A stretch of 64,000 nucleotides of DNA from Methylopila sp. 73B. GTDB lineage: Bacteria; Pseudomonadota; Alphaproteobacteria; Rhizobiales; Methylopilaceae. Each line of letters opens with the position of its first letter. The stretch's first letter is position 1. Below are positions 12,084 to 16,662 of the stretch, one piece after another. The stretch spans positions 4,094,501-4,158,500 of the forward strand of contig NZ_JAFV01000001.1 of the NCBI RefSeq assembly GCF_000526315.1, in the 5' to 3' direction. Position numbers and translations under genes: made by a program. The notes under the pieces are model-generated. The model searched no databases. It saw nothing but the letters and a program-made list of their open reading frames with translations, and was not told where the DNA came from.

Positions 12084-13760
12084 ATGAGCGATGGAGCGGC
12101 GGGCGCGGCGGATCTTCCCGAGCGCGAGGGCATGGACTTCGACGTGGTCGTGGTCGGCGGCGGCCCGGCGGGCCTCGCAACCGCGATCCGCCTGAAGCAG
12201 CTCGACCCCGAGCTCTCCGTCGTCCTGCTGGAAAAGGGTTCTGAAGTTGGCGCCCATATCCTGTCGGGCGCAGTGGTCGACCCCATCGGCCTCGACGCGC
12301 TGCTGCCGGACTGGCGCCAGGATGAGACGGCCTTCGCCAAGACCGAGGTCTCCGACGACCGCTTCCTCTATCTCACTGAAAAAGGCGCGATCCGGCTGCC
12401 GGGCTTCGGCATGCCGAAAATCCTGTCGAACCATGGCGCCTTCGTCGTCTCGCTCGGCGACGTCACCCGCTGGCTGGGCGCGCAGGCCGAGGCGCTCGGC
12501 GTCGAGATCTACCCCGGCTTCGCGGCGAACGAGATCCTGTTCGACGCCTCGGGCGCCGTCACCGGCGTCGCCACGGGCGACATGGGGATCGCGAAATCCG
12601 GCGAGCCCGGCCCGAACTACACCCGCGGCATGGAGCTGCGCGGCAAATACGTGATCTTCGCGGAGGGCGCCCGCGGCCAGCTCTCGAAGCAGCTCATCAA
12701 CCGCTTCAAGCTCGACGCGGCCTCCGAGCCGCAGAAATACGGCCTCGGCCTGAAGGAGCTGTGGCAGGTCGATCCGGCCAAGCACAAGCCCGGCCTCGTC
12801 CAGCACTCCTTCGGCTGGCCGCTCGACGACAAGACCGGCGGCGGCTCGTTCCTCTACCACTTCGGCGACGGGCTGGTCTCCGTCGGCTTCGTGGTGCACC
12901 TGAACTACGCCAACCCCTACCTCTCGCCCTTCGACGAGTTCCAGCGCTTCAAGACGCACCCGGCGATCCGCGACACCTTCGAGGGCGGCAAACGTCTCTC
13001 GTACGGCGCCCGCGCCATCACCGAGGGCGGCTTCCAGTCCGTGCCGAAGCTCGCCTTCCCCGGCGGCGCCCTGGTCGGCTGCGCGGCCGGCTTCGTCAAC
13101 GTCCCCCGCATCAAGGGCAGCCACAACGCGATCCTCTCCGGAAAACTCTGCGCCGAGCATGTGGTGGAGGCGCTGAAAGCCGGCCGCGCCCAGGACGAGC
13201 TGTCGGCCTACGACGCCGCCTGGCGCGACAGCGCGATCGGGCGGGACCTCAAGCCCGTCCGCAACGTCAAACCGCTGTGGTCGAAGTTCGGCACCCGCCT
13301 CGGTGTGGTGCTTGGCGGTCTCTCCATGTGGGCGGAGCAGTTCGGGCTCTCGCTGTTCGGCACGCTGCCCCACGGCAAGCCGGACTACGCCGCGACGGGC
13401 GAGGCAAAGGACTTCGCGCGCATCGCCTACCCCAAGCCCGACGGCAAGATCAGCTTCGACAAGCTGTCCTCGGTGTTCCTGTCCAACACCAACCACGAGG
13501 AGGACCAGCCCCCGCACCTCAAGGTCAAGGACATCTCCCTCCAGAAGACCTCGGAGCACGACGTCTACGCAGGGCTGTCGCAGCGCTACTGCCCGGCCGG
13601 CGTCTACGAGTGGGTGGAGGAGGGCGCCGACGCGCCGCGCTACCAGATCAACGCCCAGAACTGCGTCCACTGCAAGACGTGCGACATCAAGGACCCTAAC
13701 CAGAACATCGTCTGGGTCGCGCCGGAAGGCGCGGGCGGGCCGAACTATTCGGGGATGTGA
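12084..13760 (+). CDS. Electron-transfer flavoprotein:ubiquinone oxidoreductase (ETF-QO)
   Basis: This inner-membrane-associated iron-sulfur flavoprotein takes electrons from reduced ETF (from acyl-CoA and N-methyl amine or sarcosine-type dehydrogenases) and passes them to ubiquinone. The 558 residues match the family length. The FAD motif is VVVVGGGPAGLATAIRLK near residue 20. A central GGSFLYHFGD region and the C-terminal ferredoxin-like [4Fe-4S] segment with cysteines in QRYCPAGVYEW and NCVHCKTCDIKDPNQN complete the family set. The ATG has GGAG upstream. The ETF alpha/beta genes are not in the window. It is the last core-like gene before the reverse-transcriptase island. Confidence 0.95.
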   Translation: MSDGAAGAADLPEREGMDFDVVVVGGGPAGLATAIRLKQLDPELSVVLLEKGSEVGAHILSGAVVDPIGLDALLPDWRQDETAFAKTEVSDDRFLYLTEKGAIRLPGFGMPKILSNHGAFVVSLGDVTRWLGAQAEALGVEIYPGFAANEILFDASGAVTGVATGDMGIAKSGEPGPNYTRGMELRGKYVIFAEGARGQLSKQLINRFKLDAASEPQKYGLGLKELWQVDPAKHKPGLVQHSFGWPLDDKTGGGSFLYHFGDGLVSVGFVVHLNYANPYLSPFDEFQRFKTHPAIRDTFEGGKRLSYGARAITEGGFQSVPKLAFPGGALVGCAAGFVNVPRIKGSHNAILSGKLCAEHVVEALKAGRAQDELSAYDAAWRDSAIGRDLKPVRNVKPLWSKFGTRLGVVLGGLSMWAEQFGLSLFGTLPHGKPDYAATGEAKDFARIAYPKPDGKISFDKLSSVFLSNTNHEEDQPPHLKVKDISLQKTSEHDVYAGLSQRYCPAGVYEWVEEGADAPRYQINAQNCVHCKTCDIKDPNQNIVWVAPEGAGGPNYSGM

Positions 13761-13786
13761 AGAACTCCAAGTACCCCTTTCAGAAT

Positions 13787-13805
13787 CGCTAACGTTTCTT
13801 TAGCG
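13787..13805 (+). terminator. Short hairpin after ETF-QO gene
   Basis: CGCTAA (13787-13792) pairs with TTAGCG (13800-13805) around a 7-base T-rich loop, 27 bases after the ETF-QO stop, followed by TCATTT. It may be a weak terminator. It also marks the point where base composition begins to drop toward the reverse-transcriptase island. Confidence 0.4.
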
Positions 13806-13858
13806 TCATTTGCATGACCCGGCGCCATGCCTACGTCGCGGTCTTCGTCCCTTGTTAG

Positions 13859-13951
13859 TTGCCGGTTGGTCGCGTGTTGAGCGGGGCCGCGGGCGAGCAA
13901 GACGTCACCGAGCATCGGACAAGTTGTCCGTCATTGTTTGGACCGTCGCGC
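13859..13951 (+). repeat. 93-bp direct repeat, copy 1 (upstream of small ORF)
   Basis: The stretch begins TTGCCGGTTGGTCGCG and ends GGACCGTCGCGC. It is identical to 14192-14284 except for G13917 versus A14250. It ends 15 bases before the start codon of the small ORF, so it occupies that gene's leader. It contains a perfect 15-base palindrome, CGGACAAGTTGTCCG (13916-13930). Read in the frame of the small ORF it has no stop codon. Confidence 0.95.
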
Positions 13952-13966
13952 AAACGAGGAGCCGAA

Positions 13967-14332
13967 ATGCCTGATAAGCGTATCCAGGATCGGAGCATCA
14001 GCTTAAAAGACGAAGGCCGGGCGGGCGAAGCATCCGTTCGCGTTAAGATCACGGCTCGTTCACGGTTTGTTCTTTCGACCGGGATTGTGATCGCCGGGCT
14101 GCTTGGCTTAAGCTTGACAAGCGGCGAGAGTGGGAAGGTGTTGGCGGGGTTCTCGCTGGAAGCCTTCGCAAGCTCTCAACCGGACATAAGCTTGCCGGTT
14201 GGTCGCGTGTTGAGCGGGGCCGCGGGCGAGCAAGACGTCACCGAGCATCAGACAAGTTGTCCGTCATTGTTTGGACCGTCGCGCTACCGAGCCCCCCAAG
14301 GAGCTTCCTGGTACTTGGGGGTAAGAGCTTGA
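13967..14332 (+). CDS. Small single-pass membrane protein upstream of reverse transcriptase, unknown function
   Basis: This 121-residue protein starts at an ATG preceded by GAGGAG (7 bases). Residues 1-32 are charged, 34-52 (FVLSTGIVIAGLLGLSLTS) form one likely membrane segment, and 76-106 (LPVGRVLSGAAGEQDVTEHQ and on) are encoded by copy 2 of the 93-bp repeat. The TGA stop overlaps the probable TTG start of the reverse transcriptase (TTGA), implying coupled translation. The frame is also open upstream through copy 1 to 13859. I recognise no family. It could be an accessory protein of the RT system, or the region could be mainly a non-coding RNA that happens to stay open. Confidence 0.5.
   Translation: MPDKRIQDRSISLKDEGRAGEASVRVKITARSRFVLSTGIVIAGLLGLSLTSGESGKVLAGFSLEAFASSQPDISLPVGRVLSGAAGEQDVTEHQTSCPSLFGPSRYRAPQGASWYLGVRA
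14192..14284 (+). repeat. 93-bp direct repeat, copy 2 (inside small ORF, just before RT)
   Basis: This is the second copy of the repeat at 13859-13951, offset by exactly 333 bp, with a single mismatch (A14250). The mismatch lies in the palindrome and changes it to CAGACAAGTTGTCCG. It ends 45 bases before the likely start of the reverse transcriptase gene. Confidence 0.95.
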
Positions 14333-15546
14333 GCCGTTTTGTCGTTAGGCGACTGCCGGCCTCTTTGTCGGAGGCGGCAATCAAAGCGGTTTGGCGTGCC
14401 AGCCGCGACGCTAAGCGCAATAAGAGTGGAGCACCTGGTTTGGATGGCGAGAACGCTTCATCCTTTCAGGGCCAGTTGTCTGAGAACATAAAGAACGTCC
14501 GGCGAGATATTCAGCTCTCTCGTTTTACTTTCGGACGTCTACGCGGTGCGCCGGTTGTGAAAGCCTCAGGGGGCATGCGCTTAATCGCGATTCCTAATGT
14601 GCGGGCGCGATTAGTTCAAAGATGTCTTCTCGCGCATCTCGAGAGTGACAAAAAATTTCCGCAGATGTCAAGCATCGCCTATGGATTTACAAAAGCGCGC
14701 ACGTTGAAATGCGCGCAGCTTAAAATGCTTGAACTACGCAATTCGTACCCTTGGGTTTTGCAAGTCGATATTATCAAATTTTTCGACGAAATTCAGAGAT
14801 CTGACGTCAAGAAATTGGTTAGAAGGCACGTAAGGTCAAAGATAGTCTCAGAACTGCTGTGCTCGGCTGTTGATTGTGAGATTGATGATCGCATCGACAG
14901 AATTCGGATTTATGCGCAGGATAGTGGTGTCCGAAGAGGAGCGGGGTTGCGACAGGGTATGCCGGTGTCCCCCCTTCTATCGAATCTTCTACTTCGTGAG
15001 TTCGACGCGGCCTTGGTAAAGAGGGGCTTGCAAGCCGTTAGATACGCGGATGACATCGCAATATTTGCGAACTCGAAGCAAGAGTGCAGAGATAATTTAG
15101 ATTTCGTCAAGGCAGAACTTGGAAAGTTAAAATTACGCATTTCGGATATTGAAGACTTGAAAAAAACAATTATCTCAGGTCCAGAAACGACAGTGTACAT
15201 ATTGGGAGTTGATATTAAGAAAGTGGGGCATACATACGAACTGAGGGCTCCCAATAAAAAAATCGAGAATATTAAAGCCCATATGAAGTCGGCATCCAGC
15301 CTCGACGAATGCATCAAAAAGAGGTATTCCCTAGCAAAGGTATCAAGTATATTGGATTCTTTTGTCGTAGGTCACTTTGCTGCGTTGTCGGTTGTTGCTG
15401 ATCGCGAGCAGTTTCTTAACCGTATAAGCGCCGAGAAAGAAAACTGTATAAAGGGACTTCTCGTTGAATTGTTCGGTCAATCTGTTGTTGATAATCTAGA
15501 CAATAATAAACGAGCAGTTCTTGGGCTGGGGGAGTTTACGACCTAG
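14329..15546 (+). CDS. Reverse transcriptase, stand-alone, group II-like/unknown-group
   Basis: This is an RNA-directed DNA polymerase domain of about 405 residues. RT blocks in order are SGAPGLDG (34-41), RLIAIPNVRARLVQRCLLAHL (RT2 region), AYGFTKART (RT2a), VLQVDIIKFFDEI (RT3, catalytic D147), GLRQGMPVSPLLSNLLL (RT4) and VRYADDIAIF (RT5, YADD at 239-242). About 65 thumb-like residues follow the last blocks. There is no maturase DNA-binding or HNH domain, no retron VTG motif, and RT4 reads SP rather than the SQ of diversity-generating RTs. TTG 14329 is chosen for GGGGGTAAG 7 bases upstream and its overlap with the small ORF stop; TTG 14257 would start inside the repeat. The gene is much richer in A/T codons than its neighbours, a sign of transfer. 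A defence role is possible. Confidence 0.88.
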   Translation: MSRFVVRRLPASLSEAAIKAVWRASRDAKRNKSGAPGLDGENASSFQGQLSENIKNVRRDIQLSRFTFGRLRGAPVVKASGGMRLIAIPNVRARLVQRCLLAHLESDKKFPQMSSIAYGFTKARTLKCAQLKMLELRNSYPWVLQVDIIKFFDEIQRSDVKKLVRRHVRSKIVSELLCSAVDCEIDDRIDRIRIYAQDSGVRRGAGLRQGMPVSPLLSNLLLREFDAALVKRGLQAVRYADDIAIFANSKQECRDNLDFVKAELGKLKLRISDIEDLKKTIISGPETTVYILGVDIKKVGHTYELRAPNKKIENIKAHMKSASSLDECIKKRYSLAKVSSILDSFVVGHFAALSVVADREQFLNRISAEKENCIKGLLVELFGQSVVDNLDNNKRAVLGLGEFTT

Positions 15547-15584
15547 GCTGCGCAGATGTCCTTTAGTTCAAATCAAACGTTTCG

Positions 15585-16223
15585 TCATCCCGCCCGCCCC
15601 ATAGCCTGTCCCACATAGACCACCGCGGCGCAGCCGATGGGAAAGACGATCTCGTTGACGGCGAGCGCCGCGATCTCGGGCGCTGTGGCGAGCGCGGCTG
15701 ACAGGCGCAAGGCGAGCGCCGCGCCGCCGAAGACGAGGCCCACAGTGAGACCCGTCGCGGCGTAGGGCGGCAATCTCTGGACGCCGCGCTGGACAAGGGT
15801 CGCGAGGACGAAGCCGAGCACGGCGTATTCGACCGCCTTCAGCCCGGCGAGCGCGATCAGGGGGAGGGCGGCCGGCTTTGCGCTCAGGCCGATCGCGGCG
15901 CTCAAGGTCTGGTTCGCGGCCTTGGCGGCGGCGACGCCGAGCGGCGCGAACAGCGCGGCGACGAGGCCCGCAAGCGCGGCCTTCGCCCGGAACGCCGACA
16001 CCCCGATCGAGGCCCCGAGGCACACCACCGCCGACCAGGCGACGCCCGCCGCGAGATCGACCGCGAAGGCCGCGGCCGGCACGGAGGAGCCGAAGCTGAG
16101 CTTCGCCCCGAGCACCAGCCCCTGCACCACGAACCCCAGCAGCACGGCCAGCGCCGCCAGCGTTCCGATGCGCCGGAGCGGGTCGGCGGTCTCTGGGGCG
16201 GGCTCGTCTGCCATGGGGCTCAT
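15585..16223 (-). CDS. Hypothetical multi-pass membrane protein
   Basis: This is an Ala/Leu/Gly-rich protein of 212 residues starting MSPMADEPAPETADPLRR, with about five hydrophobic segments (for example TLAALAVLLGFVVQGLVLGA and AALAGLVAALFAPLGVAAAK). I do not recognise the family. The start at 16223 or the ATG at 16214 is preferred, because the long in-frame extension upstream is the translated form of the palindromic repeat at 16285-16440 (it encodes TPTPNPSPQGGGG), a known annotation artefact. It lies downstream of and opposite to the reverse transcriptase gene. Confidence 0.6.
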   Translation of the reverse strand: MSPMADEPAPETADPLRRIGTLAALAVLLGFVVQGLVLGAKLSFGSSVPAAAFAVDLAAGVAWSAVVCLGASIGVSAFRAKAALAGLVAALFAPLGVAAAKAANQTLSAAIGLSAKPAALPLIALAGLKAVEYAVLGFVLATLVQRGVQRLPPYAATGLTVGLVFGGAALALRLSAALATAPEIAALAVNEIVFPIGCAAVVYVGQAMGRAG

Positions 16224-16284
16224 TTCCCGCACCCGCCGCGCGGCGTCAATGGCGGGGCGGGCCGGCGCTGGATGCGAGCCGCTC

Positions 16285-16440
16285 CGTCCCCCTCCCCCTT
16301 GCGGGGAGGGGTTAGGGGTGGGGGTGGCGCAGGATGGCGCGCGACGGCAAGGAGCGCTCGAAGCGGGCGCGGCGTCGGCGGAGGGAACTCTTTTCTGAAC
16401 TACCCCCACCCCCACCCCTCCCCGCAAGGGGGAGGGGAGA
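16285..16440. repeat. Palindromic G/C-run repeat unit 1
   Basis: The left end CCCCCTCCCCCTTGCGGGGA followed by GGGGTTAGGGGTGGGGGT is mirrored at the right end by ACCCCCACCCCCACCCCTCC then CCGCAAGGGGGAGGGG. Between them lies a spacer with GGCGCAGGATGGCGCGCGAC and GAGCGCTCGAAGCGGGCGCG. A second unit with the same ends and a very similar spacer follows at 16507. Confidence 0.85.
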
Positions 16441-16506
16441 AGAGCCAGCCCGATCGGCGCGCGGCAGCGTCTAGGACATCGACTTGGCCGATGACGGCGC
16501 CGCTGC

Positions 16507-16662
16507 CTCCCCCTCCCCCTTGCGGGGAGGGATTAGGGGTGGGGGTGGCGCAGGACGGGGCGCGACGGCTGGGAGCGCTCGGAGCGGGCGCGGCGTCGGC
16601 GGACGATATTTCATTCGGAACCACCCCCACCCCCGGCCCCTCCCCACAAGGGGGAGGGGAGA
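16507..16662. repeat. Palindromic G/C-run repeat unit 2
   Basis: Same architecture as the unit at 16285-16440: inverted G/C-run ends around a spacer with GGCGCAGGACGGGGCGCGAC and GAGCGCTCGGAGCGGGCGCG. The two units are tandem with about 66 unrelated bases between them and differ by scattered substitutions. Such units are common, dispersed non-coding elements in Rhizobiales genomes. Confidence 0.85.

Follow-up and report, generated by a model that had tools for sequence, protein, structure and literature searches.

Near-identical direct repeats bracket a small putative membrane-protein gene beside a group II-like reverse transcriptase and may serve the synthesis of head-to-tail cDNA

Results

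A reverse transcriptase gene preceded by a repeat-bracketed small gene

A 64,000-nucleotide stretch of the Methylopila sp. 73B genome (contig NZ_JAFV01000001.1, positions 4,094,501 to 4,158,500), referred to below as the window, carries a reverse transcriptase (RT) gene that is preceded by a gene for a small putative membrane protein and by two near-identical copies of a direct repeat, R1 and R2. R1 sits just 5' of the AGGAG and ATG of the small gene; R2 overlaps the other end of that gene, and the C-terminal part of the small protein is encoded within it. In window coordinates, the locus is organized as follows:

13761..15588, no strand: AT-rich accessory slot with the whole element inside, delimited by the breaks in homology to sibling genomes
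13856..13858, plus strand: in-frame stop TAG, 3 nt upstream of R1
13859..13958, plus strand: direct repeat copy R1, 100 nt, 97% identical to R2, open in the small-gene frame
13859..14191, plus strand: repeat unit made of R1, gap and small-gene body, 333 nt or 111 codons, stop-free in frame
13917, plus strand: internal difference of R1 from R2, a G where R2 has A (14250)
13957..13961, plus strand: AGGAG, by sequence like a ribosome-binding site, directly before the small gene
13967..14332, plus strand: small putative membrane-protein gene, 121 aa, ATG at 13967, TGA at 14330-14332
14066..14122, plus strand: hydrophobic segment FVLSTGIVIAGLLGLSLTS of the small protein, maximum hydropathy 1.89
14192..14291, plus strand: R2, the second 100-nt copy of the direct repeat, which overlaps the small gene in its 3' part
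14329..15546, plus strand: RT, 405 aa, TTG start, YADD and QGMPVSP motifs, group II-like fold, own clade

Much of this anatomy had been described in an earlier note made from the sequence alone, and it holds. The 405-aa RT with YADD and QGMPVSP runs from the TTG at 14329 to the stop at 15546. The 121-aa open reading frame (ORF) is present, its TGA overlaps the TTG of the RT, and the one helix proposed for its product is plausible, since the best 19-residue hydropathy of the protein, found at FVLSTGIVIAGLLGLSLTS, reaches 1.89. The 93-bp repeat noted before and inside the small gene, whose copies differ by a single mismatch, proved to be the core of a 100-nt repeat with 97% identity and a spacing of 333 nt, or 111 codons. 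The small protein has no match in PADLOC or NCBIfam, and Pfam returns only SPATA25 at an E-value of 0.041, below the cut-off. A single match in the 4.38-Mb genome was obtained for the 651 bases around the repeats, and likewise for the RT. The combination of repeat, small gene and RT in the window is confirmed.

The layout is conserved among diverged relatives

Close relatives of the RT are rare: with the own genome counted, they occur in one of 18 genomes of the family (E <= 1e-40), in three of 397 of the order and in three of 385 of the class (E <= 1e-60 for both). The first homologues, 28-31% identical, came from Acinetobacter and Acetobacter plasmid records. None of the 39 pattern matches from a single-protein scan of genome contigs was a relative; scanning named genomes by alignment identified 69 loci, by their titles mostly from alpha-, beta- and gammaproteobacteria. 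Among the relatives, L015 comes from Asticcacaulis machinosus and L038 from Sphingopyxis sp. MSC1_008. The search for the same layout in other genomes, proposed in the earlier note, was run on 89 entries, namely 81 of 95 loci (L095-L108 being left out), L003, L004, L005, L007, L010, L011, L013 and the window; L006, L008 and L012 stand outside this set (L012 duplicates L022, with identical contig and position). A repeat pair lies upstream of the RT in 58 of the 89.

The 31 entries that have no pair include nine RTs taken for other types (L086-L094) and eight with less than 330 nt of upstream sequence (L034, L039, L040, L062, L063, L069, L078, L084). One clear R is present in L017, L038, L047 and L076, and a partial single R in L018, L021 and L052; no repeat was recognised in L005, L043, L064, L079, L081, L013 and L067, of which L013 and L067 are one locus counted twice and L064, L079 and L081 have broken or partial RTs. 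Homologues lacking both the small ORF and the repeats, which the earlier note had said would speak against a coupled system, are therefore not the rule: the 72 family entries with more than 330 nt upstream comprise 58 with a pair, four with a clear single R, three with a partial one and seven with none recognised. The small gene is absent from the plasmid gene tables of L003 and L004, tables that are incomplete by design. A hydrophobic segment (mean of at least 1.3) was found in 41 of 49 loci.

Across loci the repeat measures 63-166 nt (54 in L025, where a contig end cuts it), its core 54-162 nt with 0-5 mismatches, and the unit 291-453 nt. The two copies differ at a median of 2 positions per locus (range 0-6), and R can be aligned between lineages only inside subgroups. 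Because the copies are near-identical within each locus yet diverged between lineages, their identity looks actively kept, and not like the relic of one old duplication. Both of the branches into which the family tree first divides include pair-bearing loci, and on two predicted viral contigs, L083 and L085, the RT is accompanied by the repeat pair. The control region, 1600 nt on the downstream side of the RT, yielded either no repeat or one with a score of 15 or less, except in L053 (27), the window (73) and L060 (88); the window score stems from an unrelated GC-rich repeat. The downstream direct repeat of L060 has the highest score of the scanned set in that region. The L066 locus, on a contig titled Heimdallarchaeota metagenome-assembled genome (MAG), is almost identical to Acinetobacter L065 and probably represents contamination.

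At the level of sequence, repeats, small gene and RT stay linked even among loci that have diverged. No description of an RT with a repeat-flanked small gene was found in the open-access literature, a search that did not cover subscription papers and most preprints, nor is this layout described in the accessible parts of PMC12632851, PMC12039810, PMC4244168 and PMC8934634.

Spacing and reading frame

The distance from R1 to R2 is divisible by three in 50 of 58 loci. When RTs were clustered at 60% identity, 35 of 42 clusters were wholly divisible and two were mixed through 1-nt differences (binomial p 3.5e-11); at 45% identity, 18 of 23 clusters were divisible (p 1.3e-5). In the main frame test, which took the frame from R2 and from the part of the unit that begins 90 nt past R1, a frame was resolvable in 50 of 58 loci, and each of the 42 such loci with a spacing divisible by three was stop-free through gap and R1. 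The gaps of the 35 resolvable cluster representatives hold 2 stops in 505 in-frame codons, versus 17 in 473 and 23 in 471 in the other frames. Of two weaker tests, the one that chose the frame from the whole unit gave 0 gap stops in 728 codons versus 25 and 39 of 692, and the one whose choice the gap could influence left 47 of 49 open. A spacing divisible by three together with an open R2 entails an open R1, so the spacing and the gap are the independent facts. The eight loci outside the resolvable set are L031, L037 and L042, which carry an in-frame stop in the unit, and L024, L030, L070, L075 and the window, in which two frames are open.

An in-frame stop often lies close upstream of R1, and the usual start with its ribosome-binding site lies after R1. 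Judged from these signals, the genomic R1 would be translated in few loci and would mostly stay untranslated. A longer protein starting upstream of R1 was rejected for 18 of the 35 stop-free representatives, in which the stretch between the upstream stop and the 3' end of R1 offers neither an ATG nor a Shine-Dalgarno-backed start; in the remaining 17, where at least one codon of this kind is present, it is possible. Of the 30 representatives with a hydrophobic segment, five (L044, L045, L056, L068, L083) lack any start of this kind between R1 and that segment. A frame that is open through R1 and the gap makes sense if another unit follows R, as it would if units were joined head to tail or into a circle.

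The repeat as RNA

Over the 42 cluster representatives, R has a more stable predicted fold than matched stretches of gene body (mean z -1.33 versus -0.33, p 1.7e-4), which is compatible with a role as RNA. The earlier note had cast the repeat region as the RNA partner of the RT; the fold agrees with this part of its proposal, but the open frame suggests a head-to-tail product and not just an RNA partner.

R1 and R2 differ internally in 26 of the 42 representatives, at 67 positions in all, with A in R2 at 28 and in R1 at 14. Among the loci listed, these differences often fall at one internal hotspot of 1-4 nt, which in the beta/gamma subgroup lies at an almost constant distance downstream of a conserved GTTGC...GGC stretch. 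In ten loci folded singly, the R1 version was the more stable in seven and the less stable in two, L028 and L077, and in L058 the two versions did not differ; the window folds are -42.7 kcal/mol for R1 versus -37.5 for R2. We tentatively suggest that the open, A-rich spot of R2 could be where cDNA starts, the R1 version being shielded.

The RT family forms a clade of its own

The phylogenetic placement called for in the earlier note put the family in a separate clade (support 99/98), neither group II nor retron among the references used. These references include no RT of a diversity-generating retroelement (DGR); the labels of L112 (group II) and L122 (retron) rest on motif alone, and seven of L086-L094 are in the tree, outside the family. 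The fold is group II-like, the nearest solved structures including 7k9y, a group II RT template-switching complex, and the group II maturase model matches all 47 family RTs, scoring 160 bits on the window RT against a cut-off of 300. Pfam recognises only RVT_1 in the window RT and no maturase domain, and Rfam gives no match at E <= 1 within 13700-15700, where no intron RNA was found. The best retron model reaches 89.7 bits (cut-off 235), and the family lies outside the four retron RTs in the tree. The Drt2 model scores 43 bits against a cut-off of 390, and the UG17 model 107 bits versus 439 and 460 for two UG17 RTs; family RTs are placed outside UG17 in the tree. Models, tree, Rfam and repeat differences together uphold the statement in the earlier note that marks of group II introns, retrons and DGRs are absent, and by the marks tested the RT is, as had been claimed, a stand-alone one.

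A model of head-to-tail cDNA synthesis

The conservation of the repeat pair, the spacing by three, the open gap and the stable fold of R favour a model, to which we give a probability of about 0.5, in which a stand-alone RT copies an RNA with long direct repeats into head-to-tail cDNA bearing a near-endless membrane-protein ORF. The template would be a transcript spanning R1 to R2. Synthesis would start in R2 and proceed until the template ends in R1; the R1-derived end of the cDNA would then pair with R2, much as the retroviral R region does, so that copying goes on into the next unit. The product would be (R-gene)n, a head-to-tail DNA whose frame never stops, and this DNA, or RNA made from it, could encode chained membrane segments. 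Such a near-endless membrane protein might kill or stall the infected cell, as Neo, the ORF product of the defence system DRT2, reportedly does; by this analogy, abortive phage defence would probably be the role of the concatemer product.

To our knowledge, gene assembly by reverse transcription is known only from DRT2. That the present loci represent an undescribed class of RT system, which combines retroviral-R-like repeats with a group II-like RT as a second, independent origin of such assembly, is a tentative proposal that we hold at somewhat under even odds. Were it true, reverse transcription would have come to assemble genes on two or more occasions, one of them involving a group II-like RT and terminal repeats, and a function open to testing could be assigned to an RT family that occurs in alpha-, beta- and gammaproteobacteria. 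Should the concatemer model fail, a small membrane-protein gene between near-identical repeats next to a conserved RT would still be a distinctive layout, one that can be looked for in other genomes and tested.

Several observations weigh against the concatemer model. Spacing is not divisible by three in eight of 58 loci, of which three are 1 nt off their close relatives; in seven of these eight the gap or R1 has stops in the small-gene frame, and L031, L037 and L042 each have one in-frame stop in the unit. The frame evidence of the window itself is slight, a second frame being stop-free over most of the unit. No internal difference separates R1 from R2 in 16 of the 42 cluster representatives. 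A transcript start exactly at R1, suspected from -10 boxes in some loci, was dropped, as the promoter test has no peak there: the mean score is 6.38 at R1, compared with 6.14 and 6.54 for two windows upstream and with 5.60 and 5.47 for windows inside. Counted by codon position (1/2/3), the pooled changes are 539/522/605 for R1, 315/307/344 for the gap, 1113/1082/1224 for the body and 530/531/621 for R2, that is, a weak third-position excess in every part; with amino-acid constraint this weak, protein conservation is not the argument. The single-R pair L038/L047 has an RT dN/dS of 0.12, and this purifying selection suggests that an RT with one R may be useful when the unit is missing. Finally, defence genes are scattered among the neighbours and give a defence role weak support. 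In 89 of 131 listed neighbouring ORFs, scanned with no background rate to compare, and among the best 25 of 68 matched families, the defence-type models were methyltransferase and mads with two matches each and type I restriction enzyme, PDC-S06 and PD-T7-1 with one each.

The loci with one R bear on more than one reading. In L038, L047 and L076 the stretch upstream of the single R matches the flank 5' of a relative's R1, and at the hotspot the single R is R1-like in L076 and R2-like in L017. By title all single-R loci are drafts or MAGs, and an assembler could have produced the single R by collapsing the repeat. A search of the L017, L038 and L047 genomes with the gene body of a relative gave nothing beyond stray matches of 21-42 nt (E 0.001-0.04); the positive controls L019 and L058 gave 3.3e-63 and 1.9e-31.

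Other explanations

The locus might instead work as a tripartite system of the DRT10 kind, with R as a structured non-coding RNA in two copies, partly copied to DNA, and the 121-aa membrane protein as effector; the frame through R1 would then be a by-product of the forced identity of R1 and R2. The order RNA, membrane protein, RT is that of DRT10 as given in the accessible part of PMC12632851, R is folded more stably than the gene body, and the RT is still selected in single-R relatives. However, such a system leaves the spacing by three and the stop-free gap unexplained, the RT lies outside UG17 in the tree and far below the UG17 RTs in model score (107 bits versus 439 and 460), and the small protein matches neither SLATT nor any other accepted family in Pfam, PADLOC or NCBIfam, so we regard this explanation as unlikely, if worth keeping in view. 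Still less likely, in our estimate, is that R1 and R2 are simply partners in homologous recombination, which would remove or multiply the unit and in this way act as a phase switch of the small gene, the RT being only loosely involved. Crossovers on either side of the hotspot would give the R1-like single copy of L076 and the R2-like one of L017, and would leave one R between the RT flank and, as in L038, L047 and L076, a flank matching the stretch upstream of a relative's R1. Yet recombination gives no reason for the adjoining RT, the folded repeat or the open frame, and every single-R case is a draft or MAG.

Two further explanations fare worse. A small mobile retroelement, whose R-gene units are copied and inserted at R sites, would account for the long direct repeats and for relatives on plasmids and two predicted viral contigs, but the region has no second copy in the host genome, Pfam finds only RVT_1 in the RT, and several sphingomonads share a chromosomal neighbourhood; we consider it very improbable. 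DGR-like copying from R1 as template repeat to R2 as variable repeat at the 3' end of the small gene is the hardest to credit. The differences are few, 0-6 per pair, and are not limited to template adenines, A standing in R1 at 14 and in R2 at 28 of the 67 internal sites; DGR-type adenine mutagenesis was rejected on this spectrum over the 42 cluster representatives. DGR RTs carry an SQ-type motif, unlike the QGMPVSP of this RT.

Genomic slot and neighbourhood

As the earlier note had described, the segment is AT-rich: GC content drops from about 0.70 to 0.42-0.59 over the island, which is bounded by a gene labelled ETF-QO in that note (ending at 13760) and an opposite-strand ORF. In two sibling species with flanks about 94% identical, homology is lost at 13760/13766 and picked up again at 15587/15589, and between these points lie other AT-rich genes encoding proteins of 491 aa (L151:17910-19385) and 712 aa (L152:17009-19147). 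The sharp borders and the different AT-rich genes in the siblings mark the slot as an accessory-gene site. Neither sibling protein has a Pfam or PADLOC match; both genes are candidates for unknown defence genes, and the 491-aa protein contains an RTISAH stretch that we take to recall HEPN nucleases.

Beyond the neighbouring ORF, at 16278-16600 of the window, lies a GC-rich 102-nt repeat pair, 92% identical and with inverted partners (CCCCTCCCCCTTGCGGGGAGGGG), which looks like a dispersed intergenic repeat. The Acetobacter gene adjoining the RT in L005 (L005:6161-7756) encodes a long tandem RTGQD peptide repeat and is likely a slippage-prone phase switch; its L006 counterpart is annotated as restriction/modification. 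The sphingomonad loci L038, L047, L058, L060 and L049 have a 1.7-1.8-kb upstream neighbourhood in common. Pfam ThiC was matched in two of the 89 neighbours scanned, and we read the shared neighbourhood as thiC, as if the element were vertically inherited there.

Discussion

Relation to known systems

In retroviruses and long terminal repeat (LTR) elements, the R region provides terminal redundancy. The long direct repeats at the ends of the putative template described here resemble it in that they could serve strand transfer. Unlike those elements, the loci have no integrase, RNase H or gag, the RT is group II-like, and the repeats bracket the small gene only, with the RT outside.

From group II and group II-like RTs such as GsI-IIC and G2L4 the window RT is set apart by its score of 160 bits against a cut-off of 300 and by its separate clade, and from group II introns by the lack of intron RNA and of a maturase-domain Pfam match at the locus. 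G2L4 RT has YIDD, according to the accessible part of PMC4244168, whereas this RT has YADD.

DRT10 consists, in the accessible part of PMC12632851, of a UG17 RT, a 137-nt non-coding RNA and a SLATT membrane protein. It shares with the present loci the order RNA, membrane protein, RT, and its model is the second-best PADLOC model for the window RT. In contrast to DRT10, this RT falls outside UG17, the small protein has no SLATT match, and there are two repeat copies and one predicted helix.

DRT2, as far as the accessible part of PMC12039810 describes it, comprises an RT and a pseudoknotted non-coding RNA that give concatemeric cDNA with the Neo ORF; its unit of 111-129 nt is divisible by three, its frame is open across the junctions, and Neo is hydrophobic with little amino-acid constraint. 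The present RT belongs to another clade and scores 43 bits against the Drt2 cut-off of 390, the putative template is bounded by direct repeats of 63-166 nt where that of DRT2 is bounded by ACA motifs, the unit is 291-453 nt long compared with the 111-129 nt given for DRT2, and the present loci already contain a membrane-protein gene that has a ribosome-binding site of its own. What this family has in common with DRT2 is a unit that is mostly divisible by three and open across the junctions (50 of 58 loci, and 42 of 42 resolvable ones among them), little amino-acid constraint, and a hydrophobic product.
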